Below are positions 9,601 through 32,319 of a stretch of 44,667 bases of DNA, piece after piece. A model generated the notes under the pieces. That model saw only the letters and a program-made list of their open reading frames with translations. It did no database searches and was not told the origin of the DNA. The stretch is from a virus. How positions within the stretch are numbered: position 1 is the stretch's first letter; the number at the start of each line of letters is the position of its first letter. A program made the position numbers and the translations under genes. Where the stretch lies: positions 1 through 44,667 of the IMG/VR virus record IMGVR_UViG_3300028666_000008. One strand, 5' to 3'.

Positions 9601-9646
9601 TGGAGCAGCACGGCAGCGAACAGCGGGCCCGGACGGCCGGCTGAAG

Positions 9647-12030: not shown

Positions 12031-12290
12031 AAACCCGTACCCGTCCCGACACGCGCACCGAGGAGCTCGAGGCGCGGGAGTTTGAAGAGATGCTCGCCTC
12101 GCGTGCCTTCCGGCACTATCGGGCCAGGCTGGTCACTATGTACCAGACCGCGGCGCTGCAGTGCATCAGGGAAGAGAGCGACATGGTGCTCCGCCGGGCG
12201 CAGGGCGCCGCGGAGAGTTTGCGGGCAGTTTCCGCCGTTCCGGAGACCATGCTCGCAGAGCTCAAAAAAAAGCCGAATAACCGGACATGA
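12027..12290 (+). CDS. Small helical protein, 87 aa
   Basis: ATGA overlap with the portal stop. Mostly charged helix (TEELEAREFEEMLASRAFRH, MVLRRAQGAAESLRAVSAVP) with a basic end KKKPNNRT. Its last codons contain the CGAATAACC motif that precedes the next gene. No function recognised. Confidence 0.7.
   Translation: MKTRTRPDTRTEELEAREFEEMLASRAFRHYRARLVTMYQTAALQCIREESDMVLRRAQGAAESLRAVSAVPETMLAELKKKPNNRT
12274..12282 (+). promoter_or_regulatory. Start-associated motif CGAATAACC, copy 1
   Basis: GCCGAATAACC ends four bases before the ATG at 12287, which has no Shine-Dalgarno sequence. It overlaps the last codons of the preceding gene. It is one of five identical 9-mers on this strand. Confidence 0.6.
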
Positions 12291-12853
12291 ACTCCCTAAG
12301 AGCCGGTTTTCTGATCGCGTGCCTGGCCTGTGTGGGCCTGGCGCAAGTCACCATCAAATTCACTCCCGAGTCGAAGGCCGTACCCGCGGCGGTTGTCGCT
12401 AACGCCCGGAGCCTGACCAGATATCAGGCGGACTTCTGCAACGTCGGCACCCAGCCGGCCGTGCTGACTCCGCAGGCGATTAGCCTGGCCGCCCCCACCA
12501 TTCCGCTCATCGACAGCTACGACGCGGCCATGGTCCTCAACGGCGACGTGAGTAAGACGTTCTGGAGCCAGCTCGAGCATTACGCCAGTATCGGCTCTCA
12601 GGTGGCAGCGTTGGCTCTGGCGGTGAAGGGCGGCAGCTCCGCCTGGTCAACCGGCCTGGCGGTAGGTGGCAGCCTGTTGCCGGGCGTCGTAACCATCGCG
12701 AGGGGACAGGTGCCATCCGCTTCTGCGCTCCTGGTGCAGTTGCAGTATCCGCTGACGTTGCCGCCAGGCGCGTGTAATACCGATCACTTCTTCGCCAGCA
12801 GATCCAGGAAAGGCGCGGCGGCGCCCGTGGTCGTTACGATCGCGGCCCATTAG
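12287..12853 (+). CDS. Exported or membrane-associated hypothetical protein, 188 aa
   Basis: The N-terminus MNSLRAGFLIACLACVGLAQ is a classical Sec signal (basic start, hydrophobic core, small residues and AQ at the likely cut site), unusual in a phage structural cluster. The mature part is beta-rich with a glycine-rich hydrophobic stretch near residues 115-140 (GLAVGGSLLPGVVTIARGQ) and one disulfide-capable pair of cysteines. The start overlaps the upstream stop as ATGA and carries the CGAATAACC motif instead of a ribosome site. No homology recognised. It may be a host-surface or lysis-related protein. Confidence 0.65.
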   Translation: MNSLRAGFLIACLACVGLAQVTIKFTPESKAVPAAVVANARSLTRYQADFCNVGTQPAVLTPQAISLAAPTIPLIDSYDAAMVLNGDVSKTFWSQLEHYASIGSQVAALALAVKGGSSAWSTGLAVGGSLLPGVVTIARGQVPSASALLVQLQYPLTLPPGACNTDHFFASRSRKGAAAPVVVTIAAH

Positions 12854-12865
12854 AAAGGAACTTTC

Positions 12866-13735
12866 ATGCAAACTTTTCAACTCGTCGCAGCTCCGAACTC
12901 CGCCATGGGCCAAAGAGACGGCCTTGGCTTCTCTGAGGTCATCGTGCAGGATCTGGCCACGCCGGCGTCAGGCGGCATTCAGCCTGGCGACAAGGTCGCC
13001 TTGTCCGCTTACGGGGGACCAGCGAACCGCAGCTATATCGGCGTCAAGGCTCCATGGTCCGATCTCAACGGACCGTTTCAGATCTGCTCAACCGACGGCG
13101 CGGGCACGCTGTCGACGTTACTGACAGTTCCGCAATCCGCCGGCCAGGGTCCATTTCTGCCGGAGGGACTGCTGATCTCATCGGCGGTAACGGCTGCCGG
13201 CAACAACAGCCCGTTCGGCTGCTCGGTCTGCGCCTATGCGGATCCGGCGCCGCCGGCGGCGGCTGTGACACCGGGCATCGACTATACCGTCGGCCTGGTC
13301 ACCAAGTCCTGGAGCTCGCATATCCCGTTCGTCGACTTCCTCTCGCCCCTGACCTGGGGGCAAGTGTCCTACCAGACCATCGACCCGATCACCGGCCAGC
13401 CGACCACCGTGGCGGCAGTGGGACCGTGTTCCGAAGGCCTGGGCGTGGCAGTGAGCTCCTTTGTAGCTTTTCTCCTGGCTGCAGCGCTCGGCGGGACCGT
13501 GACATGGAAGGTTCCCGACCAGGCGCACTTCGCTTTGTTCTACAAGGATCCGCTTGCGGTCGCCGGCAGCCTTTCGGCCGTCGCGTGGATCGAAGCCGTG
13601 ATGCCCGTCGGGCCCGACGGCACCTCGGTGATGGCGATCGCCCTGGCCGCGGACATCGTGAACGCGATCTACTACGGCCGCTTTGCGGGGATCAAGCCCG
13701 CCATCCTCGGGTGCTTCAAACCCCTGACCTCATAG
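12866..13735 (+). CDS. Hypothetical protein with C-terminal hydrophobic segments, 289 aa
   Basis: AAAGGAAC precedes ATG 12866. The first 180 residues look beta-rich with few charges and some cysteines. Residues about 190-215 (GVAVSSFVAFLLAAALGGTV) and 245-275 (VMAIALAADIVNAIYYGRFA) are hydrophobic and could be membrane segments. It is followed by a holin-like gene with a shared AGGAGG, so a lysis or membrane role is conceivable but unproven. Confidence 0.6.
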   Translation: MQTFQLVAAPNSAMGQRDGLGFSEVIVQDLATPASGGIQPGDKVALSAYGGPANRSYIGVKAPWSDLNGPFQICSTDGAGTLSTLLTVPQSAGQGPFLPEGLLISSAVTAAGNNSPFGCSVCAYADPAPPAAAVTPGIDYTVGLVTKSWSSHIPFVDFLSPLTWGQVSYQTIDPITGQPTTVAAVGPCSEGLGVAVSSFVAFLLAAALGGTVTWKVPDQAHFALFYKDPLAVAGSLSAVAWIEAVMPVGPDGTSVMAIALAADIVNAIYYGRFAGIKPAILGCFKPLTS

Positions 13736-13743
13736 GAGGGTCA

Positions 13744-14064
13744 ATGCTCACCGGCGTGAAAGATTTCGTGATCAACCGCGTGCTGCGTCAGATCGCAGAC
13801 AACGCCAAGCTGAACGCCTGGACTAACTGGATCGCCGTCGCCCTGACGGCGGCGATCGCAGCCAAGGCCAACTGGGTGGTGATCATCGCCTACTTCAGCC
13901 ATCCCACACCGGCCGGCCTCGAGGAAGTCCTGCGGGTCTCCGGGGTGATGGTGGGCGCGGTCCTGCTGTTTCTCACCGGCAAGTTCCCCGGGCTGAAGGC
14001 CTGGCTGCCGGTCGCCGAGGACATCATCGTCGAGGCGGAGAAAGAAGCCGTAACCAAGCCATGA
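13744..14064 (+). CDS. Holin-like small membrane protein, 106 aa
   Basis: ATG 13744 follows AGGAGGG in the preceding stop region. Two hydrophobic segments (WIAVALTAAIAAKANWVVII and VMVGAVLLFLTG) are separated by a short polar loop, and the C-terminus is charged (VAEDIIVEAEKEAVTKP). Size and topology fit a class II-type holin, but no endolysin is recognised nearby, so the lysis role is inference. It ends in an ATGA overlap. Confidence 0.5.
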   Translation: MLTGVKDFVINRVLRQIADNAKLNAWTNWIAVALTAAIAAKANWVVIIAYFSHPTPAGLEEVLRVSGVMVGAVLLFLTGKFPGLKAWLPVAEDIIVEAEKEAVTKP

Positions 14065-14213
14065 CCGTTATGGAGGGCTGGGCGCGCCAAGCCAAGGCCT
14101 CGATTGCACGCGGTGACACAAACGCCACCGCGATCCCGCAAGCCAACCGCAGCGTGCACCTGCACCCCGGCCGCGGCCGCGCGTCCGAGAGTGCCATCCG
14201 GAGGTCGCGATGA
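14061..14213 (+). CDS. Very small basic protein, 50 aa
   Basis: MTVMEGWARQAKASIARGDT is followed by an Arg/His-rich tail (HLHPGRGRASESAIRRSR). It overlaps both neighbours by four bases (ATGA at each end), and the GGAGG for the next gene lies near its end, so it is part of the translational chain. No function can be proposed. Confidence 0.55.
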   Translation: MTVMEGWARQAKASIARGDTNATAIPQANRSVHLHPGRGRASESAIRRSR

Positions 14214-14431
14214 GCGGCACATTCCCAGACGGTCCGTATGCCCGCGTGTGCTATAGCTACGAGTTCGTTTGCTTCCAATGCAAGAAAACAGAGACCCAGC
14301 ACTTTGCCGCTTACCGCGGTGAATGTGCCGCGGCGCCAGGGCTACCCAAAGGTTGGCGGATTGTCGACGGCCTAACGGTCTGCCATCAACACCAGACAAT
14401 CGTCCTGGTCGACGGCAAGGTGGTTGGATGA
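14210..14431 (+). CDS. Small Cys/His protein, 73 aa
   Basis: GGAGG stands seven bases before ATG 14210. Contains YEFVCFQCKKTETQH and GLTVCHQHQTIV with a further cysteine in GECAAA: a likely zinc-binding fold of C-x2-C plus C-x-H-x-H. Function unknown. Followed directly by a second zinc-ribbon gene. Confidence 0.68.
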   Translation: MSGTFPDGPYARVCYSYEFVCFQCKKTETQHFAAYRGECAAAPGLPKGWRIVDGLTVCHQHQTIVLVDGKVVG

Positions 14432-14787
14432 GCGCTGCGCCAGTCTTCCTCGAGACGTTCAAGTGCCACTGGTGCCAAAAGCACCGGCCGAAGTTCCGCG
14501 TGCACAAGCTCGAGTCGAACCAGATCATCTGCGACTACTGCCTGATGTGGCAACAGCAGGCGCTCGACGTCCTGGGCGGAGCGCCGCCCCGCGGATGCCA
14601 GTATTGCCTGACCACCTGGGAGGTCCTCAAGGAACGTAGCCCGGGCGAGCAGGTGCGCATGTACGTCCTGTCGAAGGATGGGATCCTGCAGCTCCTGTGT
14701 AAGGACTGCGTCAAAGTCTATTTGCCCAAAACCGCGGAGCTCTATAAGGGCACGCAATTCGGAAGTGAGTCGCTCAAACTCTTATGA
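14428..14787 (+). CDS. Zinc-ribbon protein, 119 aa
   Basis: ATG 14428 overlaps the previous stop as ATGA. Four cysteine pairs: CHWC near residue 13, CDYC near 36, CQYC near 56 and CKDC near 92, giving two probable zinc ribbons. Such small virion-region zinc proteins have no settled role. The last codons overlap the scaffold-like gene start. Confidence 0.68.
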   Translation: MSAAPVFLETFKCHWCQKHRPKFRVHKLESNQIICDYCLMWQQQALDVLGGAPPRGCQYCLTTWEVLKERSPGEQVRMYVLSKDGILQLLCKDCVKVYLPKTAELYKGTQFGSESLKLL

Positions 14788-15578
14788 CAACCCCCACCAC
14801 AGTTACCCCTCCCGCGGCAGCCGCGCCGCCGGCACAAGCTGCCCCCGTAGAAACCACGCCGACGGTCGACGTGGCGGCGCTGCAGCGGCAGCTCGACGAT
14901 CTCAAGGCCGCTAACGAGGAATCCAGGCGCACCGCTGAGTTCTGGCACAGCAGAGCCACCGAAAATCCGGCGCCGGCCGCTCCGGCCGCCAGCAACGACG
15001 ACGAGGCCGACATCGATGTCCTCGAGCTCGCCACCAAAGGCGGAAAGGCCTTCAAAGCTTTCCTCACCGGCTGGGCCGAGCAGAACGGCTTCGTCAAGGG
15101 CGAAGCCATGACTCAGGCCATCAACCAGAAGGCCCAGGAACTCGCCAAGCAGGGCGAACTGGTCGCCAAGTACCCGGACCTGAAAAAGAACGACAGCGAG
15201 TTTTTCAAGGCCACGGCGCTCGAGTACGGCAACCTGAAAAAGCTGCCGGGCATCACCGAGGCGCTCGCCATGGAGATGGCCGCCGAACGTGTGGAGCTCC
15301 GCTTTCTGCGCGAGGGCAAGGTCAAGACGCCGGCACAGATCACAGCCGACAAGGCAGCCGAGAAGGAACAGGCCCGGCGCGATCGCGCAGCCGCCGGCGC
15401 CGGCGATCGCGGCGGCCGCCGTGCCACGAGTCCCGAGGATGAAAGCGACGACGAGATGACGGATGCGCAGAAACAGATCGCCATCCGGATGCTGGTCGAC
15501 GACGAAACCACCCCCGAGCAGGCAATCGAAAAATACAAGGCCCGCGCTACTAAAGGCGTGGCAATGAGGTCCAAATAA
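14784..15578 (+). CDS. Scaffold-like protein, 264 aa
   Basis: Pro/Ala/Thr-rich N-terminus, then predicted coiled coil (LQRQLDDLKAANEESRRTAE), an acidic stretch (NDDEADIDVLELA), long helices and a highly charged C-terminus. This composition, together with the position between portal and capsid genes, is typical of phage scaffolding proteins, which line the procapsid and then leave. It is not identified by a specific motif. It shares a TAATG overlap with the next gene. Confidence 0.55.
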   Translation: MTTPTTVTPPAAAAPPAQAAPVETTPTVDVAALQRQLDDLKAANEESRRTAEFWHSRATENPAPAAPAASNDDEADIDVLELATKGGKAFKAFLTGWAEQNGFVKGEAMTQAINQKAQELAKQGELVAKYPDLKKNDSEFFKATALEYGNLKKLPGITEALAMEMAAERVELRFLREGKVKTPAQITADKAAEKEQARRDRAAAGAGDRGGRRATSPEDESDDEMTDAQKQIAIRMLVDDETTPEQAIEKYKARATKGVAMRSK

Positions 15579-16504
15579 TGCCGACGAAACCCACCCGCAC
15601 CGCGCCCGATCCGGCGCGCGCCGCAAACAAGAAAGTTTTGCAGGATCGTCAGGATCGCATCGACGCGAAGATGAAAGAGATTCCGGACCTCGGTCTCAAC
15701 CTGAAGGCCCAGGAGCCGGGAACGGCCGCGGAGTTCTTCGACGAATTCGATAAGAAGGCCTTCGGCGCCGCGGCGCACACTACCGTCCGCTGGGTCTACG
15801 GCCCCGACACTCTGGTCGACGACTCGCCGCAAATGATGGAGCTGCTGCAGCGCGAGGGCAAAGAGTCCACCGCGGAAATCTACCGCAGACTGATCCTCGA
15901 GAAACAACACGAAGCCGCCGGCGACGAGGTTCTGCGCAAGGGGCTCTACTACGCGATCCAGAAGTTCGGCGTCGAGAAGGTCGCCGAGGCTTTCGCCGAT
16001 CGCATTCTGAAGATTCCGGCGCGCCAGGTGGAGTACGAGACCGGGCCCGAGGAATTCGGGGATCCGCTGCTGATGGGCGGCAACGTTCTGCGCGAAGTGG
16101 TCATGCGGCACGGCAACCGGCCGGGCATGAGCTACCGGTTTCTTTCCCAGCGCTGTATCGACGTCCTGGGACTCCGCGGGTACACGCTCGTGAAAGACGA
16201 GCACGGCGAAGTGGTGAAGGCGGGCACGCTGATGCTGGGCGAGATCCCCATGGCGATCGCCGCCGGCCGCGCGCGCTACTACCGCGATCAATCGCAGCAG
16301 CTGGTGCGCGATGCCGAACAGGAGTACATGGAGAACGCGGAACAGCTGATCCGCCAGGCCGGCCGCGTGGGCGCCGGATCCCGCGCGCTGCGTCCGTCGG
16401 AAGTGATTCAGGGCTTTGCGAGCGAGCGCCGCGAGCTCGTAGGCGCCGACGTGCCGATGGGAGTGAACATCGAAAGAACTCCCGACGCTCCCAACATTCC
16501 CTAG
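15578..16504 (+). CDS. Structural hypothetical protein upstream of capsid genes, 308 aa
   Basis: Lys/Arg-rich N-terminus followed by mostly helical sequence (YRRLILEKQHEAAGDEVLRK; FGVEKVAEAFADRILKIPAR), then DPLLMGGNVLREVVMRHGNR and a C-terminal RRELVGADVPMGVN. No family recognised. It lies directly before the strong hairpin at 16505-16553, which closes this transcription or translation block. A role in head assembly is inferred from its neighbours only. Confidence 0.6.
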   Translation: MPTKPTRTAPDPARAANKKVLQDRQDRIDAKMKEIPDLGLNLKAQEPGTAAEFFDEFDKKAFGAAAHTTVRWVYGPDTLVDDSPQMMELLQREGKESTAEIYRRLILEKQHEAAGDEVLRKGLYYAIQKFGVEKVAEAFADRILKIPARQVEYETGPEEFGDPLLMGGNVLREVVMRHGNRPGMSYRFLSQRCIDVLGLRGYTLVKDEHGEVVKAGTLMLGEIPMAIAAGRARYYRDQSQQLVRDAEQEYMENAEQLIRQAGRVGAGSRALRPSEVIQGFASERRELVGADVPMGVNIERTPDAPNIP

Positions 16505-16553
16505 AAAAGTTCCCCCTGCTCTGGCGAATAACCACTCAGCAGGGGGAACTTTT
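16505..16553 (+). promoter_or_regulatory. Perfect 16-bp hairpin before the head genes
   Basis: AAAAGTTCCCCCTGCT (16505-16520) pairs base for base with AGCAGGGGGAACTTTT (16538-16553) around a 17-base loop, starting right after a stop codon. The 3' arm ends in a T-run, as in an intrinsic terminator, and also holds the only G-rich ribosome-site candidate (AGGGGGA) for the GTG at 16557. It may be an attenuator or processing site that sets head-protein ratios. A CGAATAACC motif sits in its loop. Confidence 0.85.
16525..16533 (+). promoter_or_regulatory. Start-associated motif CGAATAACC, copy 2 (in hairpin loop)
   Basis: Same 9-mer as the other four copies, but 23 bases from the start codon because the right arm of the 16-bp hairpin intervenes. 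If the stem forms, the loop is brought close to the start. Confidence 0.55.
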
Positions 16554-16556
16554 TAA

Positions 16557-17129
16557 GTGGCGAATCCAAATAACCCGTTCGGCTTTCGGCCGATCTCTCG
16601 TCTCGGCGGCATTCCGTTCAGCTGCACTGAATACGGCAAGCCGGCATCGGACGCAAACACGCTCTTCGCTTTCGACATCGTGAAGAAGGTCACCGGCGCG
16701 GTGGCAATCCCGGAGAGTCCGATCGGGTACAACGTCCCGACGATTCAGACGGGCTATCAGGGCACCCCCGGCACGACTCTCTGGGTGGGCTCCTCGCTGA
16801 ATTATGGCGCGCTCTCGACCCTCTCCGTTCACCTGGTGACGGATGAAATCGACGTCCTCTATATGGCCATGTGCGATGCCACCACGCCATTGACCACCAC
16901 GGCGCACATCGGCAAGAACGCCAACATCAACATCGCCTACAACACCGGCAGCACGGCGACCAAGCAATCCGGCATGACCGTGAACACCACCGGCATCGCG
17001 ACCACCAACACGCTCGATTTGCGGTTGACGCGCGTCTCGATGATCACGCCGAATCTCGAAGGCACCAACGCGGTCGTCGAGTGCACGATCAACAAGCACC
17101 TGTTCGGTCAGCAGACGGCGGGCGTCTAG
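16557..17129 (+). CDS. Decoration-like head protein, 190 aa
   Basis: Start GTG 16557, directly after the hairpin. Opens MANPNNPFGFRPISRLGGIP, an arrangement seen in small beta-rich head proteins. The body has low charge, many Thr/Asn/Gly and alternating hydrophobics (NINIAYNTGSTATKQSGMTV). It is immediately upstream of the major capsid gene and is controlled from the same hairpin block, which suits an abundant capsid decoration or stabilising protein. No direct homology was recognised. Confidence 0.6.
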   Translation: MANPNNPFGFRPISRLGGIPFSCTEYGKPASDANTLFAFDIVKKVTGAVAIPESPIGYNVPTIQTGYQGTPGTTLWVGSSLNYGALSTLSVHLVTDEIDVLYMAMCDATTPLTTTAHIGKNANINIAYNTGSTATKQSGMTVNTTGIATTNTLDLRLTRVSMITPNLEGTNAVVECTINKHLFGQQTAGV

Positions 17130-17144
17130 TAGAAAAGTTTTCGG

Positions 17145-17177
17145 GGGCGGGAGCCGGCCACAGAGCCGGCCCCGCTC
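17145..17177 (+). promoter_or_regulatory. GC-rich hairpin before the major capsid gene
   Basis: GCCGGC (17153-17158) and GCCGGC (17165-17170) pair across a six-base loop, and the stem extends outward by about seven more pairs with one bulged A. No T-run follows, so it is not a standard terminator. Upstream lies AAAAGTT as in the 16505 hairpin, and downstream is the strong GGAGGGG for the capsid start. It may stabilise the capsid message end. Confidence 0.5.
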
Positions 17178-17198
17178 GCAAGTTTCGGAGGGGTTTGA

Positions 17199-18131
17199 AT
17201 GTTTATCAGAACGCTATTTCCGGACCTGTTCCTGCAGAGCATGCTGCCGGCGATCGACGAAGTAGTGATGACCAAGTACTCGCGGTTCCCCGACGAATTC
17301 GTCGACGTGTTCCGCATGGAGTCGAGCTCGCGCTCGATCGAACAGACCACCGAGGTCACCGGCTTCGGGCAGTTCGCCCTGGTACCGGAAGGCGACACCA
17401 CGCGCTACGACGAGGCGTTGCCCGGCTTCAACAAGACCTACATCCACGCGCAGTATTCGCTGGGATTCAAGGTCTCGAAGGTGGCCATGGATGACGACAA
17501 GTTCGGGGTGGTGCGCAAGCTCGCCACCGAGCTCGGCCGCTCGGCCAAGGAAACCAAGGAAGTCACGGCCGCCAACGTCTTCAACACCGGCTTCAGCTAT
17601 GACACGGGCGTGGTCAACGGGCCCGACGGTCAGCCGCTGTTCTCTGCCTCGCATCCGCTTATCGGCGGCGGCGTGCAGACGAACAAGCTCAGCTATGCCA
17701 CCGATCCCGACGTCACGAGCATTCAGCTCGCCCTGACGGATATGCGGCAGACGGTCGACCACCGCGGCAAACGGCTGCGCATTCCGACCAAGAAAGCCAT
17801 CTTCCCGCCGGCGCTCGAATTCATCGGGGCGGAACTGTTGGGCGGATCCGATCGCGCCGATACGGCGAACCGGACCATCAACGCCTTCCGGCGCCGCTCG
17901 GGCATGCCCAGCTTCGACAGCTGGATGGTCTGGGACTATCTGACCGATCCGCACGCCTGGTTCCTCGAAGGCGAGAAGAGCGACACCGAGCTCCGCTTCT
18001 ACGAGCGCGAAGCTTTCAACACGGTGCACGACATCGACTTCGACAGCCGCTCGGTGAAGACCGCCGGCTGGATGCGGTTCAGCGTCGGCTACAACGGTTT
18101 TTACGGCATCTACGGGGTCGGCAGCCAGTAA
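17199..18131 (+). CDS. Major capsid protein (HK97-fold, Mu-type family), 310 aa
   Basis: ATG 17199 has GGAGGGG six bases upstream, the best ribosome site in the late operon, as expected for the most abundant virion protein. The sequence has the capsid hallmarks of a helical N-terminal arm (MLPAIDEVVMTKYSRFPDEF), the TAANVFNTGFSYDTG / PLFSASHPLIGGG region common in Mu-like head subunits, and a conserved C-terminal half (AGWMRFSVGYNGFYGIYGVG). Size is typical. It forms the icosahedral shell. Confidence 0.85.
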   Translation: MFIRTLFPDLFLQSMLPAIDEVVMTKYSRFPDEFVDVFRMESSSRSIEQTTEVTGFGQFALVPEGDTTRYDEALPGFNKTYIHAQYSLGFKVSKVAMDDDKFGVVRKLATELGRSAKETKEVTAANVFNTGFSYDTGVVNGPDGQPLFSASHPLIGGGVQTNKLSYATDPDVTSIQLALTDMRQTVDHRGKRLRIPTKKAIFPPALEFIGAELLGGSDRADTANRTINAFRRRSGMPSFDSWMVWDYLTDPHAWFLEGEKSDTELRFYEREAFNTVHDIDFDSRSVKTAGWMRFSVGYNGFYGIYGVGSQ

Positions 18132-18160
18132 CCGGCAGCCCGGCCACCTAAGGAGACCTC

Positions 18161-18688
18161 ATGGCGCAAATACCTCAATACACCCGGCCGGCGTCGACCA
18201 ATGTCACGCGGTCGCGCGTCAGCCCGACTCGAGTGGCAAAGGACCGGTCTGTGCTGGCGATGACCGCGCCCGCGCCGGCCAACCGGTCGGTGAACGCGGA
18301 AAACAAACAGGTCGCCCCAGTCGACCTGGTCCTGCAAGCTACGTACTCGCCCTCGGTGGCCCCGACGCAGTTGACGGGCATCACCAACAACTCCGTCGTG
18401 TCCTGGAACATCACCAACAACTGCCCGGGGCGCGCCCCCGACTTTTATCCCGGCGACATGTACGAATTCATGAGCCAGGACAACGTCAACGGGGCGAGCA
18501 CCGACGCTCTCACCGCGGCCAAGCTGTACGTTCTCGGCGTGTACGTCACGGGAGCCAATCCCTACGATCTGGTAATGATCCTGGTGAACCTTTCGGGCGG
18601 CACAGCGTCGACGCCGGTGTCTTACATCCCGACGCTGTTGCTCAACCGGTACGACAACCTGTCGACGGATCCGAACCCAATTCCGTAA
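18161..18688 (+). CDS. Hypothetical virion protein, 175 aa
   Basis: AAGGAG precedes ATG 18161. A polar, Arg/Pro-rich N-terminus of about 50 residues is followed by a beta-rich domain (GVYVTGANPYDLVMILVNLS; TPVSYIPTLLLNRYDN). No family recognised. Position between capsid and tail genes suggests a minor head protein. Confidence 0.62.
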   Translation: MAQIPQYTRPASTNVTRSRVSPTRVAKDRSVLAMTAPAPANRSVNAENKQVAPVDLVLQATYSPSVAPTQLTGITNNSVVSWNITNNCPGRAPDFYPGDMYEFMSQDNVNGASTDALTAAKLYVLGVYVTGANPYDLVMILVNLSGGTASTPVSYIPTLLLNRYDNLSTDPNPIP

Positions 18689-18698
18689 GGGAGCTTTG

Positions 18699-19139: not shown

Positions 19140-19149
19140 GTTCCAGCGG

Positions 19150-19158
19150 CGAATAACC
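19150..19158 (+). promoter_or_regulatory. Start-associated motif CGAATAACC, copy 3
   Basis: GGCGAATAACC ends four bases before the ATG at 19163, which has no Shine-Dalgarno sequence. It lies in the 23-base gap after the previous stop. Confidence 0.6.
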
Positions 19159-19162
19159 TACC

Positions 19163-21400
19163 ATGAAGACGCTTCGGCGCGCCGCGCTCGCCGCGGTCCT
19201 GGTAGGGGCCAGTTTCGCGCAGACAATCACCGTTCCGGGGCAGTCGACTCCGGTCTCCCTGTCGTGGCTGTACTACAACAAAATGCGCTGGGCGGGCGCG
19301 TGGAGCTCGTCGACCACCTACAACGCGCAGGACCTGGTGAGCTCCGGCGGCTACGGCTACATCAGTCTCTCCGGCAACAACCTGAATAACCTCCCGGTGT
19401 TTGGCGGAACTGCCTGGTGGGCTCAGCTGCCTGCTACCGCCTCCTCTTTGCCCTCGGGGAGCCAGACCCAATACCTGCAGGTGCAACCGAACACCAGCGG
19501 CGGGCTGACTTACCGCTTCGCCAGCTGGCCGCAACTGAGCGCCACGGACTACAACTTCCCGGCGCAAACGCCAGGCGGCTCTCTGATCGGCGGCGGGGCC
19601 AATCAGCCGGTCACTCTCACGCCTTGTCCGTTGGGCACTTCCGGCAGCGACACCGGGCACTACGTCTACCTATCCGGAGGCACGGGGACGGCTGAAGCCG
19701 TGGCAATCACCGGAGGCACCTGCACCAGCGGGGCGTCCACCGGCACCGTCACCCTTACGCCTGCGAACAGTCACTCGGGCGCCTGGACGATTGCTAGCGC
19801 CACTGCTGGAATCGAAGAGGCGGTGCAGGTTGCCGGGGCTGCCGGCGGTGGGATGGTGATTGTGCCCGCGGCCACGAACGCGGCCCGCGGTACGATCGTG
19901 GTCTCGCAACCGAACGTATCCATGGCCGGCACCGGGGCCGGCAGCATCATCCAGGCGGCAAATAACGCCAGCCTGCAAAACCTGCTTTCCATCACGAACG
20001 GGGCGACGGGGTTCCGGATGTGGGACGTTGCGCTCGACTGCAACCGGGCAGGCCTGGGAACCGCGCAGAACACCGGCAATAACGACTATTCCTGTCTGTC
20101 GGTCCATGCGGCGCATGTGACCCTCACTAAGATCGAGGTCCACAACGCCCAGGAGACCGCGGTGTATGTGGGCGACAACTCGGTGGCCCCGAACGACTTT
20201 AAGATCTCGCTTTCCTGGATCCATGACAACGGGGGAACAATCAACTCGAGCGGCTTTGGCACCGGATTCTTTCTGGGTGGATCGACCGCGTGGCTGGGAG
20301 CGGAAATTACCCAAAACCGGATCGAGAACAACTACAACACCGTCACCGGCCCAGGCCCGAGCAGCGCCATCAACGCGCCGACTCCCACCAACGTGGTGGT
20401 GTCGGGAAATCTCATCCGCAACAACTACAACGTCAACGGCGGCATGATCGCGGCCGGCAACACCGGCGGGGGAACGTGCGCGGGGCTGCTGATGGACTGG
20501 TCGATCATGGGCAACACAATCTATCGTTCCGGGAGCTTCGGCTCCGACGCGAGCTCGGGGATCGAAATTTGTGGCACCCAGTTCTCCATCGCCGGAAACA
20601 CCATTGCGGGATTCAACCAAAACGGCGTGAGTCTGGACCCCGGATCCTCCCAGGGAGCGATCACCGGCAACACAATTGTGCTTTCTTCGGGTTACGCCGG
20701 CATCGACAACGAAGGCAGCGGGCCACTGGGCTCGGTCAACGACATGATCGAGACCGGCAACAAGATCACCGGCGGCCAGTATGGCATCGCGCTCGACTAC
20801 ACGGGGATCGGAAATATCCTGATCACCGGGAACAACTTCACCGGCTCAGCGACGGCGGGAATTCATGATCTGTCGACGACCGGGAACAACACGATTTTCG
20901 CCAACACCGGGTTCTTCTCGCCGATTCAAAACTGGTATGGCTCCTTCCTTGTGAATCCCAGCACGGGCCTGACGCAGTTCTACACTTCAACCAACAACAG
21001 CTCAAGCAACGATTCCGTAAGGGTTGTGGCCCCCAACACAGCTAGCACCGTCACCGCTCCCTCGCTCGGCGCCAATGGGTACAACCCGCTCACCCAATCG
21101 GGCGATGCCGGATACTTCGGGGTTGGATCTGGCGGCGCGGACACAGGAGGTGCGGTTTTCGGCGTCGCGTCCTCAGTAGCGGCCGGAATGCGGGTGGACG
21201 GCCCGACTCACAAGGTCACGATCAAGGGCAGCAGCGTGGCGGTGAATTCCTGCACCCAGTATCAGGGCAGCGGATCACCGAATAGCGTCGTTACGGGCAA
21301 CCCCTGCGATATCTACCTCAACACCGCTGGCGGGGCGGCGACGACTCTGTGGGTCAAAGAGTCGGGAACTGCGACTAACACCGGGTGGGTGGGCAAATGA
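19163..21400 (+). CDS. Beta-helix tail spike with signal-like N-terminus, 745 aa
   Basis: Binds, and possibly cleaves, host surface glycans. Residues 1-19 (MKTLRRAALAAVLVGASFA) look like a Sec signal. Residues about 40-90 have a carbohydrate-binding-like pattern (WAGAWSSSTTYNAQDLV, GYGYISLSG). From about 220 to 600, short repeats rich in N, G and V/I (VVVSGNLIRNNYN, FSIAGNTIAGFN, ILITGNNFTG) make up a right-handed parallel beta-helix of the pectate lyase type. The C-terminal 120 residues are Ser/Thr/Gly-rich and end AATTLWVKESGTATNTGWVG, a common tail-spike end. No catalytic residues can be assigned. It ends in an ATGA overlap with the next gene. Confidence 0.85.
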   Translation: MKTLRRAALAAVLVGASFAQTITVPGQSTPVSLSWLYYNKMRWAGAWSSSTTYNAQDLVSSGGYGYISLSGNNLNNLPVFGGTAWWAQLPATASSLPSGSQTQYLQVQPNTSGGLTYRFASWPQLSATDYNFPAQTPGGSLIGGGANQPVTLTPCPLGTSGSDTGHYVYLSGGTGTAEAVAITGGTCTSGASTGTVTLTPANSHSGAWTIASATAGIEEAVQVAGAAGGGMVIVPAATNAARGTIVVSQPNVSMAGTGAGSIIQAANNASLQNLLSITNGATGFRMWDVALDCNRAGLGTAQNTGNNDYSCLSVHAAHVTLTKIEVHNAQETAVYVGDNSVAPNDFKISLSWIHDNGGTINSSGFGTGFFLGGSTAWLGAEITQNRIENNYNTVTGPGPSSAINAPTPTNVVVSGNLIRNNYNVNGGMIAAGNTGGGTCAGLLMDWSIMGNTIYRSGSFGSDASSGIEICGTQFSIAGNTIAGFNQNGVSLDPGSSQGAITGNTIVLSSGYAGIDNEGSGPLGSVNDMIETGNKITGGQYGIALDYTGIGNILITGNNFTGSATAGIHDLSTTGNNTIFANTGFFSPIQNWYGSFLVNPSTGLTQFYTSTNNSSSNDSVRVVAPNTASTVTAPSLGANGYNPLTQSGDAGYFGVGSGGADTGGAVFGVASSVAAGMRVDGPTHKVTIKGSSVAVNSCTQYQGSGSPNSVVTGNPCDIYLNTAGGAATTLWVKESGTATNTGWVGK

Positions 21401-23102: not shown

Positions 23103-23742
23103 CGCTCTCAATTCCCTGACCGATGCGATCTATCGCCTGGGGTTTGTCAGCCTGGCGGAATCGCAGGCGGCCGCGGCCTACGTCACCAACGCGGAGCTCT
23201 ACCAGTTTGCCGACGACGCGGCCAAGAAACTGAGCTACAGCGCGGGCATCTTCGTCACGCTCGACAGCTCGATTGCGGTGACGGCGGGCGTGGGAGTTTA
23301 CAGCGAGCCGGCCACCCACGTCTTTACAGTCTACGCGTGGATTTCGCCACTCCCTGGCGTCGGTGGCAGCAGTCAGGTGCTTCGACCGACGACAGTGGCT
23401 CAGCTATTCGCGCTCGATTCCACCTGGTCGACGACGTCCGGAGAGGCCAAACGGTTCTCGCTCGACGCCGGCAGCGTGGGCACCATCACGATTTACCCGC
23501 TGCCGGTGAACAGCGGCACGCTCAATCAGATCTGCCAGGAGTTTCCGGCGACGATCTCCGCGGCCAGTTCGCAGGTGGCGAGCATGCCATCGGTGCTGCA
23601 GGACTACCTCACCTACGCCATGCTGGCGGGGGCCCGGGGGAAAGAGTCGGAGTCGGCTAAGCCCGAGATGGCGGCGCACTTCCAGCAGCGCTGCAGTCTG
23701 TACGAGCAGGTGATCGAGCATCTGTGGGGCCCGGGACAATAA
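23095..23742 (+). CDS. Tail accessory or connector protein, 215 aa
   Basis: ATG 23095 overlaps the previous gene by eight bases. Helical N-terminus (DALNSLTDAIYRLGFVSLAE, YVTNAELYQFADDAAKKL), beta-rich middle, helical C-terminus (LQDYLTYAMLAGARGKESES). Same general architecture as the two preceding genes, suggesting a series of stacked ring proteins between portal and tail hub. Confidence 0.55.
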   Translation: MVDALNSLTDAIYRLGFVSLAESQAAAAYVTNAELYQFADDAAKKLSYSAGIFVTLDSSIAVTAGVGVYSEPATHVFTVYAWISPLPGVGGSSQVLRPTTVAQLFALDSTWSTTSGEAKRFSLDAGSVGTITIYPLPVNSGTLNQICQEFPATISAASSQVASMPSVLQDYLTYAMLAGARGKESESAKPEMAAHFQQRCSLYEQVIEHLWGPGQ

Positions 23743-23771
23743 GCCTGGCTGATACTGTCGAAAAGCCGCAC

Positions 23772-23948
23772 ATGCACGATAAAGAAGGTTTGAAAGTCAT
23801 GGCTGCGATCATCGCCTCCGGCGTGGTGCAGTCTCACGGGGTAACCCCCGAGGAAATCGCGGCCACATCCATCGCGATCGCCAAGCACATCGTCTCGCAG
23901 GTGGACGCGGTGCCGCCCGAGGAGCCGCAAGACCCCCCCGTCGAATAA
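23772..23948 (+). CDS. Small hypothetical protein, 58 aa
   Basis: MHDKEGLKVMAAIIASGVVQ continues to EEIAATSIAIAKHIVSQVDA and an acidic Pro-rich tail. The start is uncertain: ATG 23799 has GAAGG upstream, and GTG 23724 is also in frame. Two short helices only. Its TAA is part of the CGAATAACC motif before the next gene. Confidence 0.6.
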   Translation: MHDKEGLKVMAAIIASGVVQSHGVTPEEIAATSIAIAKHIVSQVDAVPPEEPQDPPVE

Positions 23949-23950
23949 CC
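23942..23950 (+). promoter_or_regulatory. Start-associated motif CGAATAACC, copy 4
   Basis: GTCGAATAACC ends four bases before the GTG at 23955. It includes the stop codon of the previous gene and is the only initiation signal visible for the largest tail protein. Confidence 0.6.
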
Positions 23951-23954
23951 CCAC

Positions 23955-26900
23955 GTGGGTTACAAGCGCGAAAAGCTGCAAATTCTGGGGGGCGGTTTCA
24001 ACCTGCTGCCCCCTGGCGACAAGGTCCCGAAAGCCGATTATCTGCAGGCGCAGAACTGGCGGGTCGATCGACAAGGGCGGCTGGTGTCGCGCTTCGGCTA
24101 CGTGTCCAAATTCTCGATCGCGTCGGCCGGCCTGGCGCATTCGGGCTTCGTCAACGGCGGCATCAACGGCGACTACTACGTCGGCTGCAACGACACCATC
24201 AATCCCACCACGTCGAAGCTCTACTGGAACTTCAACGCGTCCGCGATCGCCACCGGCTTCGACGGCTACCGGATCGGCCTGGCCTGCATGAACGGCTGGG
24301 TCTATTTCATGAACCGCGGCAAGCAGGGACGGCATCAAGGCTCGCTCGGCGCCGGCACGTCGCAGACCTGGAACGTAGCGGCGCCCACGAATTCCCCCGT
24401 ACCCAGCACAGCGTCGAACCCGACGCCGAGCGCATCGGTCACTTATAACTACACGATTCAGGGCAGCACGTATGTGCACTTCCTGAACATCGCCGGCACG
24501 CTTTACAGCTTCGTGGAAAACGGGTATTCGGCCGGGCAGTTGCCCCTGGTGATTGCTTCCCTGGCTTCGCAGGATCCGAACTGCACGGTGAGCTACAGCG
24601 GCTCGGGTAGCGCGGTGGTCATCACGCCGATCGTGCCGAACACGCTGGTGCAGGTTTCGGGATCCGATGGGAACACAGCGACGAACCTGGCCAATGGAAC
24701 GGTCACCTCGCTGCCCAATGGGACCTATCAGTTCTATGTGACGTATCAGTCGGCCGACGCCACGCTCGAATCGAACCCCAGCCCGGTATCGGTGCCGATC
24801 GCGCTGGCCAACCAATCGGTAACGCTGACCTCCATTCCGGTCAGCGGAGATGGGCGCGTCGGGATCCGGAACATCTACGCAGTCGGTGGGACTCTCGGAC
24901 AGCCGTATCAGGTGACCACGATCGGCGACAACACCACCACCAGCCTGACCTTTAACTGGTCCGACCTGGCGGTGACGAACGCCGGGAATGTCATGCCCAC
25001 CGACCATGATCCGCCGCCGGCGGCTTCGGGAATGGTGGGGCCGCATTTTTCGCGGCTGTTCGCCTGGTCGACGGCCACTTATCCGAACCGGCTCTTTTAC
25101 ACCGATCCGGACCTGCCGCAGTACTGGCCTGGCTCGGCCGATCCCGCAGAGGGCAATTGGGTCGACGTCGGCGCCGAGGGCGAGGCGATCGTCTGGTGCA
25201 CAGTCCACACCAACATCCTTGTGATCTATAAAGAGCGAACGATATGGATGCTGGTAGGGGATCCGGGGACGGGGTATCTGCAGCAGATGACCGACGCGAC
25301 GGGACTGGCCGGCCAGTTCGCGGTAATCGCGGCGGGCAACAAGGACTACTTCGTCGGGCCCGGCGGCCTGCACATCTTCGATATCGACCGCGTGCTCGAC
25401 GGCGGCGCGGAAGTGCTGCCGATTTTTCAGGCGGGCGCGACCGCCGGCCCGTCGCCGAATGGCTCGAGCTTTCCGGGCAGCCCCGGCAGCATCAAGCCCG
25501 GGACCGCCTACAACGGGAACTCACTCTATCCCTACGCGCTCGCCCTGGGCTACGGGATGGGGAAGCTGTACGTTGGTTACGCGGAGACCATCGGGGTGGG
25601 GACCTCCTACTGCACGCTGGTGTACCACGAGGACTCCAAGCGATGGTTCTACCACCGCAATGGCATGGGCGGAGCGACCGGGTTCTTTGGCTTTGTCTTC
25701 GACGGTGCCCAAATGGTGGGCTTGGGAGGCTCCGCCGGCGGCACAGCCAGCGGTTACAACATCGACGGCTTCGGCTCCGCCTACACCCAGGACAACGGGG
25801 CCATCGCGATCCCCTTTACCTACCAGTCGCATTACGAGGATGCCGGCGCGCCAGACAACCAGAAGAAATGGCTGGACCTGGTCATCGACTACGAATTCGC
25901 CGGCGATACGGCGACCGTCTCGGTGGGCTACGACAACGGCGCAAACCTGACCGCCGCCGCCTACAGCGGCGTCACCACGTACGCGGTGAGCCAGTGGGTG
26001 ACCTCCGGAGGATTGACCTACCAGAGCCTGCAGGGCAACAACATCGGACACACTCCGGCGGGCTCCCCCACCTGGTGGATGGCGGTCAATAACTCGGGCA
26101 CCATCACCGGCACGGGCCGCCAGGCAGCCACCTTCGCTCTCGGCACTGACGGAGTACTCGCCAAGAACATCTCAGTCCTCATCGCGGGCGCGGCAAACGG
26201 GCTCATCGTGCTGCACAACGTGTATCTCTCCTACTACGAAGAGGCGCGCCTGGCGGCCGCGGCGAGCACCATGCCAACCGATCTGGGTATCGGAAAGGTC
26301 AAACAGTGCAAAGAGCTCGAGCTCGACATCGACGCCTCGCAGGGAGCGGTCAACGTCAATCTTTATAGCGACCTGCCAGGCAATGCGCTGGCGGTCAGGC
26401 AGACTCCGACCGTGGCGGCGAACAGCGGCCGCGCAGTGATGCGATACCCGTTCTCGACCGCGGGACCGCCTCCCAGCTACACCGAGGGCTATCTCTGGCG
26501 CGTGGCGCTGTCGGCCGCGGCGGGCCCATTCCGGATCTATGCCGTGCGCCTGCTGATGCGCGCCGTGGGGGTCTATGTGGAAGCCTACGAGGCGGCCGCC
26601 GGGTTCGTGTGGGACTCGATGGAGGAAAGCTTCGAGAGCCTGATGACCAAAGTGCCGCGGACTTTCGCGATCGCACTGGCGGCGGCGCCGATTAAACGTT
26701 TCCGGGAGCTCTCGCTCGAGATCGACACCTTCAACGCCGCTGTCACCTACACGTTCCTGACGGACCTGCCCGGCAACGCCCAGGCCTCGAGGCAAACCGG
26801 GACGGTGAACACGGGGACGGCCGGCCGGCGCTTCTTCCGCATCCCGCTGCCCGGCGGCAGCAATACGCCGATCGAGGGGCGGCTCTGCCGGCTGCAGCTT

Positions 26901-28571
26901 TCCGGCAGTGCCAAGTTCATTTTGTACGGCGCCGCGGTGGAACTGCTGCCGGTGGGCGTTTACATCGAAGCGTACGAAGGCGCGTCCACACCTGGCGCCG
27001 TCTACGACTCACGCCAGCAGGACGGCGGCACGCCCAACGTCAAGGAGGCGCGGGAGCTCGAGCTGGACATCGAAACCACCGGAGCGGTGACCGTGACCCT
27101 GAGCAGCGATATCACGACGCCGGCGATCACCGCCGCGCCGGCGACCACCGGCCGGCAGAAGGTGATGATCCCACTCACGGTGAACGCCGCGGCCGAGCAA
27201 TTCTTCGACGGCCGCCTGTACCAGCTGATCATCTCGGGTTCGAACGCTTTCCGGCTCTACGACGCGCGCATCAAGGTGCGGGTTTACGGCCACTACCTGC
27301 AGGCGAGCGAAGGCTCCACAGGAGCCCTCTGGGACTCGACCGACCTGGACCTCGGCACCCAGACAGTCAAACAGCTGCGCGAGCTGCAGCTCGAGCTCTC
27401 GGCCGCCGGCGCCTACACCGTGGTGGTCTATACCGACCTGCCGGGCAACGCCATGGTGGCGCGGGTGACCAGCAACCAGAGCGCGACCACGGGGCGCACC
27501 GCGGTGCAGATTCCTCTGCCTCAGGGCAGCGTCCCGGACAATTACATCTTCGGCCGCCTGGTGCGGGTGACGATCGCGAGCAACTCCGACATGAAGCTCT
27601 TCGGCGCGCGGATCCACGCGCGGCCGATCGGCGTCTATGTCGAGAGTTACGAGGCGGCCGCCGGCGCCGTGTGGGACTCGACTCCATCGGACCTGGGCAG
27701 TCCCGCCGACAAGATCTTCGAGCAGCTCCGCTTTGAGCTCGACACCGATGGCGCGGCCACCGTGGCGGTCTACACCGACCTGCCGGGCGAGAATTTCACG
27801 GGCAAGGGCACGTATGCCCTGACTGCCGGGGCGACGGGGCGGCATTGGGCCACCGTGCCGCTGCCGGCGGTTACCGAAGGCCGATCGATCCGCCTGGTGG
27901 TGACGAGCGCGGCCGGCTTCCGGATCTACCGGGCGCAGGTGAGGCACTTCAAGGTAGGCCGGTATCTGGCCATGACGCAGCCCGCCGGCAACGACTCGCT
28001 CACCACACTCGAGTTCGATTTCAAGAGCGAGCGCGTGAAGGCGTATAAGAAACTCGAGATCGACATGCGGGCGGACGGCGCCGTGAGCATGGCGGTGCTC
28101 ACCAACCAGTCCGGGCAGCTGGCCACCCAGTACACCCCGGCCGCGGTCACCACACCGAACGGCCGCGCCACCATCTACATGCCGCTCACTCCGGGAATCC
28201 GCGGCCGCTTGCTGCGCCTCTCCATGACGAACGGACCGGCGCGCATCTATCACCTGCGGGTCTGGACGATCGCCGAGAACGAGCCAGGCGCTAAGTGGCA
28301 GTGGGAAGATTACCCTCTCGAAGAGAGCGACGTGCTGCCGGCGTGGGCCGACTTGCCGGTGGAGGCGACACCGCCGGCATTCACCTGGTCGGCTCTTCCG
28401 GTACCGCCGACTCCTCCGGAGTGGCAATGGGCGCCGTTCCCGGTGAACCCGACGCCGCCCGGGAGTAACGCGACGGATCCGGCGCAGTGGCAATGGGGCA
28501 AGTTCCTGCAGGTGGAGGAGACGGCCCCCGACTGGAAGCTCATCGACGTGCCCTTTGAAGTGACGGAATGA
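23955..28571 (+). CDS. Large tail hub / DNA-stabilisation-like protein with tandem modules, 1538 aa
   Basis: Residues about 1-560 have the layout of P22 gp10-type beta-propeller tail plug proteins: a GGFNLLPPGDKVPKADYLQA start, then repeated strands, VIWCTVHTNIL-like blades and GPGGLHIFDIDRVLDGGAE. Residues about 660-700 repeat the carbohydrate-binding-like pattern seen in the tail spike (AAYSGVTTYAVSQWVTSGG). From about 777 to 1490 come six related modules of 105-125 residues, each with a charged R-E-L-x-L/F-x-L/I-E/D strand, a TDLPGN-like turn and a GRLxRLxL strand. The last 70 residues are six short W-x-W/x-P-V-x-T-P-P repeats. GTG 23955 has no ribosome site but carries the CGAATAACC motif. 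Confidence 0.7.
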   Translation: MGYKREKLQILGGGFNLLPPGDKVPKADYLQAQNWRVDRQGRLVSRFGYVSKFSIASAGLAHSGFVNGGINGDYYVGCNDTINPTTSKLYWNFNASAIATGFDGYRIGLACMNGWVYFMNRGKQGRHQGSLGAGTSQTWNVAAPTNSPVPSTASNPTPSASVTYNYTIQGSTYVHFLNIAGTLYSFVENGYSAGQLPLVIASLASQDPNCTVSYSGSGSAVVITPIVPNTLVQVSGSDGNTATNLANGTVTSLPNGTYQFYVTYQSADATLESNPSPVSVPIALANQSVTLTSIPVSGDGRVGIRNIYAVGGTLGQPYQVTTIGDNTTTSLTFNWSDLAVTNAGNVMPTDHDPPPAASGMVGPHFSRLFAWSTATYPNRLFYTDPDLPQYWPGSADPAEGNWVDVGAEGEAIVWCTVHTNILVIYKERTIWMLVGDPGTGYLQQMTDATGLAGQFAVIAAGNKDYFVGPGGLHIFDIDRVLDGGAEVLPIFQAGATAGPSPNGSSFPGSPGSIKPGTAYNGNSLYPYALALGYGMGKLYVGYAETIGVGTSYCTLVYHEDSKRWFYHRNGMGGATGFFGFVFDGAQMVGLGGSAGGTASGYNIDGFGSAYTQDNGAIAIPFTYQSHYEDAGAPDNQKKWLDLVIDYEFAGDTATVSVGYDNGANLTAAAYSGVTTYAVSQWVTSGGLTYQSLQGNNIGHTPAGSPTWWMAVNNSGTITGTGRQAATFALGTDGVLAKNISVLIAGAANGLIVLHNVYLSYYEEARLAAAASTMPTDLGIGKVKQCKELELDIDASQGAVNVNLYSDLPGNALAVRQTPTVAANSGRAVMRYPFSTAGPPPSYTEGYLWRVALSAAAGPFRIYAVRLLMRAVGVYVEAYEAAAGFVWDSMEESFESLMTKVPRTFAIALAAAPIKRFRELSLEIDTFNAAVTYTFLTDLPGNAQASRQTGTVNTGTAGRRFFRIPLPGGSNTPIEGRLCRLQLSGSAKFILYGAAVELLPVGVYIEAYEGASTPGAVYDSRQQDGGTPNVKEARELELDIETTGAVTVTLSSDITTPAITAAPATTGRQKVMIPLTVNAAAEQFFDGRLYQLIISGSNAFRLYDARIKVRVYGHYLQASEGSTGALWDSTDLDLGTQTVKQLRELQLELSAAGAYTVVVYTDLPGNAMVARVTSNQSATTGRTAVQIPLPQGSVPDNYIFGRLVRVTIASNSDMKLFGARIHARPIGVYVESYEAAAGAVWDSTPSDLGSPADKIFEQLRFELDTDGAATVAVYTDLPGENFTGKGTYALTAGATGRHWATVPLPAVTEGRSIRLVVTSAAGFRIYRAQVRHFKVGRYLAMTQPAGNDSLTTLEFDFKSERVKAYKKLEIDMRADGAVSMAVLTNQSGQLATQYTPAAVTTPNGRATIYMPLTPGIRGRLLRLSMTNGPARIYHLRVWTIAENEPGAKWQWEDYPLEESDVLPAWADLPVEATPPAFTWSALPVPPTPPEWQWAPFPVNPTPPGSNATDPAQWQWGKFLQVEETAPDWKLIDVPFEVTE

Positions 28572-29704
28572 AGACAGGGAACAATCTCACGCCGATTCCC
28601 TCGGGGTTGAACGTCGAGGATCTGATCACGGCTGTCAACGACCGGCTCCGGCGCATTGCGGGCGGCGCGGACACCACCACCACGATCACCAGGATGATTG
28701 TGGGCGGCGGGGGAGCGGTGCCTGCCAGCCAGGTCAATTACGGAACCCATGTGCAACGGAAGGCGGCGCCGGTGTCTGCCTTCGGCGAAGGCGCCCTGTG
28801 GTACGAGACTGATCGGACCGTGTGGTATCAATTGCAGGCCGGCGGAGCGAGCGCGGGCAGCTGGCGGTGGATCGACGGCGAATGTATCTGCACCCAGGCA
28901 AATCTGCCGACCGATCTGGGAGCGAACGATAAGGGGTTCCTCGCCAATGTGACCGACTACAACCACGTGCTGGCCTGGAGCGGCACAGCGTGGACCGCCG
29001 GGCCGGGATGGGATGAACCGTGCTATATCCGCGGCTTCATGGTGGATCCGACGGGCACAGGGTGGAAACTGTGCGACGGCAACGGCGACGACGGTAGCGC
29101 AATCGGCGTGGCGCATCCGGTGAAGTACCTCAAGCCCGACGGGACGCTGGGCTCGCTCACGTCGGCGACGGTGGCGCCGTGCGTGCCCAATCTGGTAGGC
29201 TCGCCGGCGTTTTTGCAGTTCGGCGCCACGGCCACGGGGATCAATGCCCCTGTAGCTCCCACCCTGGCGATGAATAGTTACACGCCGGCCGGCACCAACA
29301 GCACCGGCACGGTAACGCCTTTGGGGACCATCGCCTGGCCAGCGGGTGTACCCACCTTCGCCGGCACCGCCCTGCCAACGCACCAGCACGAAATACCCGT
29401 CGGGTTCATCAGCCCAAACTCGTATTTTCTGCAGTCGTACGGGACCGGGTCCGCACAGGCGATTTCAAAATTTTTCCCCGGCTCGGCCACCACGGGCAAC
29501 GTAGCGGCGGAACTCGACCAGGCGAAGTCGGCCGGGACCCCCTCGGGTACAATCTCCTGGCCTGCCGGAGTACCCACCTTCGCCGGCAGCTCGTCGACTA
29601 CATCCGCGGAGACGTTCACGGGCACGCCGGCCACGCTGACAGGCACAATCTCCAATACCGGGACTCCCCAGGGCATCACCCTGCGGCCCTGGTTCCGCAA
29701 GTAA
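28568..29704 (+). CDS. Tail fibre / collar-domain protein, 378 aa
   Basis: ATGA overlap with the hub gene. Residues about 155-172 (MVDPTGTGWKLCDGNGDDGS) match the tail-collar signature G-W-x-L-C-D-G. The protein ends GITLRPWFRK, close to the usual end of collar-domain fibres. Between them is a Thr/Gly/Pro region with a duplicated segment (WPAGVPTFAG twice, also visible as a DNA repeat near 29322 and 29544). It probably forms a trimeric adhesin or whisker. The duplicated part may vary between relatives. Confidence 0.75.
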   Translation: MKTGNNLTPIPSGLNVEDLITAVNDRLRRIAGGADTTTTITRMIVGGGGAVPASQVNYGTHVQRKAAPVSAFGEGALWYETDRTVWYQLQAGGASAGSWRWIDGECICTQANLPTDLGANDKGFLANVTDYNHVLAWSGTAWTAGPGWDEPCYIRGFMVDPTGTGWKLCDGNGDDGSAIGVAHPVKYLKPDGTLGSLTSATVAPCVPNLVGSPAFLQFGATATGINAPVAPTLAMNSYTPAGTNSTGTVTPLGTIAWPAGVPTFAGTALPTHQHEIPVGFISPNSYFLQSYGTGSAQAISKFFPGSATTGNVAAELDQAKSAGTPSGTISWPAGVPTFAGSSSTTSAETFTGTPATLTGTISNTGTPQGITLRPWFRK

Positions 29705-29706
29705 GC

Positions 29707-29715
29707 CGAATAACC
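29707..29715 (+). promoter_or_regulatory. Start-associated motif CGAATAACC, copy 5
   Basis: GCCGAATAACC ends six bases before the ATG at 29722, which has no Shine-Dalgarno sequence. It follows the fibre stop codon by three bases. Confidence 0.6.
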
Positions 29716-29721
29716 CGCTAG

Positions 29722-32318: not shown

Positions 32319-32319
32319 C

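Follow-up and report, generated by a model that had tools for sequence, protein, structure and literature searches.

Phage-encoded sigma factors with late promoters that consist of a −10 box only (T4 gp55), leaderless late mRNAs and promoters placed inside masking hairpins are each known separately. In T4, the early long RNAs of genes e and I-TevI hide the ribosome-binding site in a hairpin, and late RNAs begun within the hairpin leave it free (PMC3014915; PMC2988022). The Thermus phage phiYS40 has leaderless middle and late mRNAs (PMC3594737), and a published criterion for leaderless genes is a −10 box about 12 bp ahead of the start codon (PMC3160421). Two other short elements invite comparison, the −10 box of sigma-28 promoters, with the consensus GCCGATAA (PMC2859248), and the start-associated sequences (SAS) of cluster K mycobacteriophages, GGGATAGGAGCCC, which include a Shine-Dalgarno core (PMC3203893). 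Here we describe a box that recurs on the structural side of the uncultured phage record IMGVR_UViG_3300028666_000008 in IMG/VR, all 44,667 nucleotides (nt) of which are called the window below. It is likely the promoter box of the late genes, from which mostly leaderless mRNAs would be made.

In the scheme that we propose, the late promoters would have no −35 element and would consist of an extended −10 box, G[G/T]CGAATA(R), spanning −15 to −7. Their most likely reader would be a FliA/WhiG-like sigma factor whose gene directly precedes the terminase gene. Transcription would start on the purine 13 bases past the C of CGAA. For the majority of late genes with a box, this purine would be the first base of ATG or GTG, giving a leaderless mRNA, and at the head-gene cassette it would begin a short leader with a strong Shine-Dalgarno sequence.

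The box and its spacing

The motif CGAATAACC occurs in the window at 12274, 16525, 19150, 23942 and 29707, always on the plus strand, compared with a mean of 0.26 copies in dinucleotide-shuffled sequence, where five copies were never reached. A recount agrees with an earlier sequence-only reading of this DNA, which had listed the same five copies and put the chance expectation at about 0.3; a chance repeat is excluded. Four copies precede start codons, by 4 nt at ATG 12287, ATG 19163 and GTG 23955 and by 6 nt at ATG 29722, and no Shine-Dalgarno sequence was found at any of the four. The copy at 16525 is placed in the loop between the perfectly matched 16-bp arms of an inverted repeat (16505-16520 and 16538-16553), 23 nt upstream of GTG 16557. 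Both arrangements had been described correctly from the letters of the window.

Portal and capsid searches yielded 90 related IMG/VR loci, in which counts were made after masking sequence shared between loci. In the 0.91 Mb of non-redundant DNA from these relatives, the coding strand has 26 copies of CGAATAACC and 12 of CGAATAACG, and the opposite strand has one and none, respectively. An ATG or GTG begins after exactly six further bases in 38 of 78 plus-strand copies of CGAATAA as against 1 of 32 minus-strand copies, and G[GT]CGAAT has RTG 9 nt past CGAA in 122 of 346 plus-strand copies as against 5 of 144 on the minus strand. This spacing peak vanishes if CGAA or the preceding G[GT] is altered. 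A search of related phages, which had been suggested as a check, finds the motif before genes; its spaced form is present in 16 of the 17 fuller contigs, at a density of roughly one per 10 kb, compared with none in all 17 for a reversed-pattern control.

A consensus was drawn from 120 sites with the start-codon purine set as +1. It reads G at −15, T or G at −14, C at −13, G at −12, A at −11 and −10, T at −9, A at −8 (64%) and A or G at −7, followed by G at −2 (61%), C or T at −1 (87%) and a purine at +1. The G at −15 is invariant, and it emerged in a set chosen only by CGAATAA and a start codon. The conserved unit, G[G/T]CGAAT(A), extends further 5′ than the motif first picked out in the window and is less strict at its 3′ end. 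No strongly conserved columns were found from −60 to −18 in the 120 sites, and weak A-rich upstream columns appear in the 28 GG-type sites only, which are related to each other. No loop stood out in a search for hairpin-loop enrichment before starts, so the small GG...CC hairpins seen at some sites are not a family-wide feature.

The fixed distance from CGAA runs to a purine 10 positions after it (nine bases between), which is usually the first base of ATG or GTG. Where the start codon lies two bases further on, +1 is still A in 11 of 16 sites. Where it lies one base further on, several sites read AGTG and others TATG or CATG, and at the latter transcription may start one base later. Since the purine at +1 is kept when the start codon shifts, the fixed partner of the box is the purine and not the codon. 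At sites without an adjacent start codon the same +1 often begins AGGAGGGG, AGGAGGGGG, AGCAGGGGG, GTGGGGGG or ATATG. In about 20 relatives, the head gene orthologous to the one at 16557 is preceded by a box that adjoins no start codon, by a pyrimidine-purine step at the predicted start and by a Shine-Dalgarno leader.

Shine-Dalgarno sequences are present at only 5 of the 120 boxed genes, and among orthologues of the gene at 23955 they are found in 0 of 10 boxed and 9 of 11 unboxed copies. The boxed genes therefore look leaderless by the published standard, both in the position of the box and in the missing Shine-Dalgarno sequence (PMC3160421). They share with the TANNNT −10 boxes of bacterial leaderless genes a box about 12 bp before the start, but differ in that their box does not fit TANNNT and is no signal of the host genome. 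The likeness to phiYS40 is that late phage genes are predicted to lie on mRNAs without leaders; unlike in that phage, the promoters here appear tied to a phage-encoded sigma factor, the predicted starts coincide exactly with the start codon, and the leaderless promoters exist beside leadered ones of the same class. The spacing pattern fits a transcription start served by a −10-only promoter rather than a translation element, and RNA 5′ ends are predicted at the +1 positions.

A profile trained on other phages, with the sites of the window left out, ranked 37917 first in the window, 23955 second and 16538 third, followed by 29857, 19163 and 29720, all on the plus strand. The top-ranked position is an additional strong site (CGAATTACC), and the match at 29857, which lies inside a gene, may be due to chance. 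Predicted leaderless starts follow the boxes at 12272-12287 (GCCGAATAA, ATG 12287), 19148-19163 (GGCGAATAA, ATG 19163) and 23940-23955 (GTCGAATAA, GTG 23955). At 29705-29720 (again GCCGAATAA) the predicted +1, A29720, is two bases ahead of ATG 29722. The box at 16523-16538 (again GGCGAATAA) has its predicted +1 at A16538 and would serve a leadered promoter within the hairpin. The additional box at 37902-37917 (GTCGAATTA) would start at A37917, with the leader AGAGGGGAAC before ATG 37927. The gene starting at 12287 was not found in relatives. On the minus strand at 38387 there is a weak match to the box (ACGTCGAAGAACCGGGT, then GTG), with leaderless spacing, before a 91-amino-acid minus-strand open reading frame (ORF); its score lies within the shuffled range.

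The phage sigma factor and the rival readings

The proposed reader of the box is encoded at 6960-7673 on the plus strand, and has a FliA/WhiG-like region 2 and a region-4 end. It matches Sigma70_r2 (E 3.8e-11), FliA_WhiG is its best match at the subfamily level and FliA is its best match in the PDB. Its structural model contains sigma2 and sigma4 helices joined by a short disordered link, with no sigma3 domain, and the protein keeps the RVRGA..D segment. Wherever a related locus extends far enough, the sigma gene is found just upstream of the terminase gene; in the loci that lack it, the sequence on that side is shorter than about 0.8 kb. Among 14 loci, spaced boxes number 0 in 74 kb upstream of the sigma gene, and 29 on the plus strand and 1 on the minus strand in 187 kb downstream of it. 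In the window all sites are downstream, on the terminase and structural side. One contig, IMGVR_UViG_3300021406_000005 (loci L050 and L113), has sigma and terminase genes on the strand opposite the head genes, unlike all others, and also carries one box on the sigma/terminase strand; it is either inverted or assembly-wrapped.

In an alignment relative to +1 made in the present analysis, GKCGAATA falls in the same register as sigma-28 GCCGATAA, and the two have 5-6 of 8 positions in common (G−15, C−13, G−12, A−11 and A−8, with C−14 in two window sites only). The FliA residues D81, R84 and R91 take part in reading the −10 box. A study by Koo et al. from 2009 is said to concern the FliA residues that read this box. 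The phage residue equivalent to E. coli FliA R84, assigned by an alignment made in the present analysis, can be compared with the base at −14: sites in phages with K have 52 T and 5 G, and those in phages with R have 5 T and 29 G. The pairing of K with GT boxes and R with GG boxes is followed by 27 of 29 contigs. The box is probably read by the phage's own FliA/WhiG-like sigma factor. The late promoters of T4 are alike in joining a phage sigma factor, a −10-only late box and late genes; they belong to an unrelated phage and have another box, and the present sigma factor differs in having a FliA-like region 2.

Several observations weigh against this account or parts of it. The phage sigma factor scores 43 bits against a FliA_WhiG cut-off of 189.6, which is far below, and the −35 element TAAAGTTT that sigma-28 promoters have 11 nt upstream of the −10 box has no conserved counterpart in the 120 sites. 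The system departs from sigma-28 further in its two-domain sigma factor, in having G or T at −14 where sigma-28 promoters have C, and in its predicted starts at the start codon. The tracking of the −14 base by the K/R residue is suggestive and not significant, because no more than two or three independent switches can be placed on the tree. Family-wide, the G[AC]CGAA class has no spacing peak, and the window boxes at 12287 and 29720 both have C at −14 and profile scores within the shuffled range; these two candidate promoters are less certain than the others. The hairpin at the 16525 copy is confined to six phages, namely the window and its closest relatives. The metagenome-assembled genomes (MAGs) of the putative hosts, described below, encode FliA_WhiG-family sigma factors of their own.

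This last point would suit promoters that serve a host sigma factor, housekeeping or FliA, rather than the phage one. Such a reading is unlikely, as the spaced motif occurs at about 0.3-3 per Mb in the putative host genomes, only slightly above the control pattern and far below its density in the phages, which makes a host promoter class less likely; the box is also absent from early regions, and it is the phage sigma residue that tracks the −14 base. If the late genes shared one long polycistronic mRNA, an element for translation initiation, either SAS-like or a site of the non-Shine-Dalgarno kind that recruits ribosomes or binds a repressor, would account for a motif that adjoins start codons lacking a Shine-Dalgarno sequence and keeps to a single strand. 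SAS and their extended forms (ESAS) are likewise short one-strand repeats just ahead of starts, some of them near inverted repeats. However, SAS carry a Shine-Dalgarno core, stand at distances that vary from 3 to 7 bp and occupy the non-structural half, whereas G[GT]CGAATA lies in the structural half at one fixed spacing and has no such core. The same box and spacing also precede leaders with their own Shine-Dalgarno sequence and no adjacent start codon, and the constant distance runs to the purine and not to the codon; we hold a translation element to be improbable.

Cleavage of the late transcript by an endonuclease 9 nt past CGAA would yield the same 5′ ends at the same fixed spacing. It is improbable, in that the pyrimidine-purine step (Y−1 87%, R+1), the sigma-28 register and the linked sigma gene all suit initiation better. 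A promoter is favoured because the same +1 position also begins Shine-Dalgarno leaders or ATATG. The sequence-only reading had left two options side by side, a promoter for the phage sigma factor that makes leaderless mRNAs and a translation-start element of the cluster K kind. The former gains from the fixed spacing to the +1 purine, the leadered sites that begin AGGAGGGG or ATATG, the sigma-28 register, the universal sigma linkage and the restriction to the late region, and the latter finds no support.

The hairpin before the head cassette

The hairpin extends over 16505-16553 on the plus strand, with the box in its loop and the Shine-Dalgarno sequence AGGGGGA (16541-16547) for GTG 16557 in its 3′ arm. 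The gene concerned (16557-17129, plus strand) is a conserved small member of the head cassette that precedes the major capsid gene and would be served by the leadered promoter. Homologues were found in 77 loci, with the N-terminus aligned in 76. When the leaders of its orthologues were folded, the z-score ranged from −3.2 to −7.6 in the six phages that have the hairpin (−7.4 in the window), compared with about 0 in most other relatives. Double, compensatory pair changes are seen at +1, +2, +3, +4, +9 and +11, and several pairs are G-U, which suits RNA. Predicted folding energies are 0 to −5.5 kcal/mol for RNA beginning at +1 and −24 to −32 kcal/mol for read-through RNA.

This leader has the anatomy of T4 genes e and soc, in which a late promoter occupies the 5′ part of the stem that pairs with the Shine-Dalgarno sequence. 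By analogy, read-through RNA would have its Shine-Dalgarno sequence hidden in the stem and the head-cassette gene would stay silent, while RNA from the internal promoter would lack the 5′ arm and leave the Shine-Dalgarno sequence exposed. T4 genes e, soc and I-TevI likewise have a late promoter within a hairpin that masks the read-through Shine-Dalgarno sequence; the present case differs in that it is a head-cassette gene that would be controlled, and in that most boxed genes are predicted to be leaderless. The presence of a hairpin had been noticed from the window alone, and this likely meaning had been missed.

The inverted repeat could instead be an intrinsic terminator or a DNA operator, as in the window its arms are perfectly complementary and the 3′ arm runs into TTTTT. 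We consider this possible although doubtful. The hairpin is kept without the T run in four of the six (L005, L032, L036 and L035), G-U replaces G-C pairs in a manner that suits RNA over DNA, and in every case the predicted +1 is the first base of the 3′ arm, which contains the Shine-Dalgarno sequence.

Host, significance and other features of the window

Relatives of the capsid protein occur in five MAG contigs, four assigned to Bryobacterales/Bryobacteraceae (Acidobacteriota) and one to Streptosporangiaceae. The phage family is likely to infect Acidobacteriota (Bryobacterales), and the host is given as likely rather than proven because phage contigs can be binned wrongly. A Megablast search with 24 kb found no match among 50,697 phage records, which places the family outside isolated phages, and capsid matches among those records reach at most 32% identity. 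In a scan of all IMG/VR the strict GT-box-ATG pattern was found in 39 stretches versus 46 for the reversed control. Beyond this phage family the strict pattern does not outnumber its reverse; the element is therefore family-specific and not a general phage signal.

Acidobacteriota are abundant soil bacteria, and to our knowledge their phages are almost unstudied. Nothing on gene timing in Acidobacteriota phages was found in the literature searched, nor was the combination of −10-only late promoters of a phage sigma factor, leaderless late mRNAs and promoters within masking hairpins, with a FliA-like sigma factor and a G[G/T]CGAATA box, in an uncultured soil phage family. Taken together, the chances are about even that the late programme of a whole family of soil Acidobacteriota phages rests on −10-only promoters read by a divergent phage sigma factor derived from FliA, with most boxed late mRNAs leaderless by design, with an R84-equivalent residue that co-evolves with the −14 base, and with a promoter-in-hairpin, evolved separately from those of T4, that prevents premature translation of the head cassette. 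The proposed promoter code is testable, and from it the precise 5′ ends of many RNAs throughout the family can be predicted. It also links one residue of the sigma factor to one base of the promoter. Gene annotation would benefit as well, because the box can be used to call start codons, and the head-cassette leader would be a second and apparently independent instance of a hairpin that masks a ribosome-binding site and has the promoter for it inside.

The genes of the window include those for terminase, portal, major capsid and other structural proteins besides the sigma factor. The major capsid gene (17199-18131, plus strand; Phage_capsid_4, E 1.1e-13) has a strong Shine-Dalgarno sequence and no box of its own. 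Just upstream of it, at about 17145-17180, is a G+C-rich hairpin (GCGGGAGCCGGCCACAGAGCCGGCCCCGC) that is apparently retained with sequence changes in close relatives, and that could be an RNA stabiliser or attenuator. The ORF downstream of the additional box (37927-38109, plus strand, the in-frame end of ORF 37828-38109) encodes 60 amino acids with a hydrophobic stretch. Its product looks like a small membrane protein, and it is called holin-like because of its size and hydrophobicity only. Rfam returned nothing, and ARAGORN detected no tRNA.

The only matches to a giant ORF of 1810 amino acids at 32179-37611 are PHROGs of unknown function, which cover a short part of its length. On the minus strand, an ORF of 1339 amino acids (7825-11844) runs antisense to the terminase and portal genes, and is probably not a gene but an effect of high G+C. 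A 15-nt tandem repeat (CTCGCGCCGTCCAGT) is shared by the two contig ends (1-344 and 44474-44667), and reads on the minus strand as a pentapeptide-repeat protein with LDGAR units; probably the genome is circular, or the assembler broke inside a pentapeptide-repeat gene. The early region contains a perfect 15-bp inverted repeat at 4586-4635, ACCCGTCGTCGTCGT and ACGACGACGACGGGT, with a 20-nt loop.

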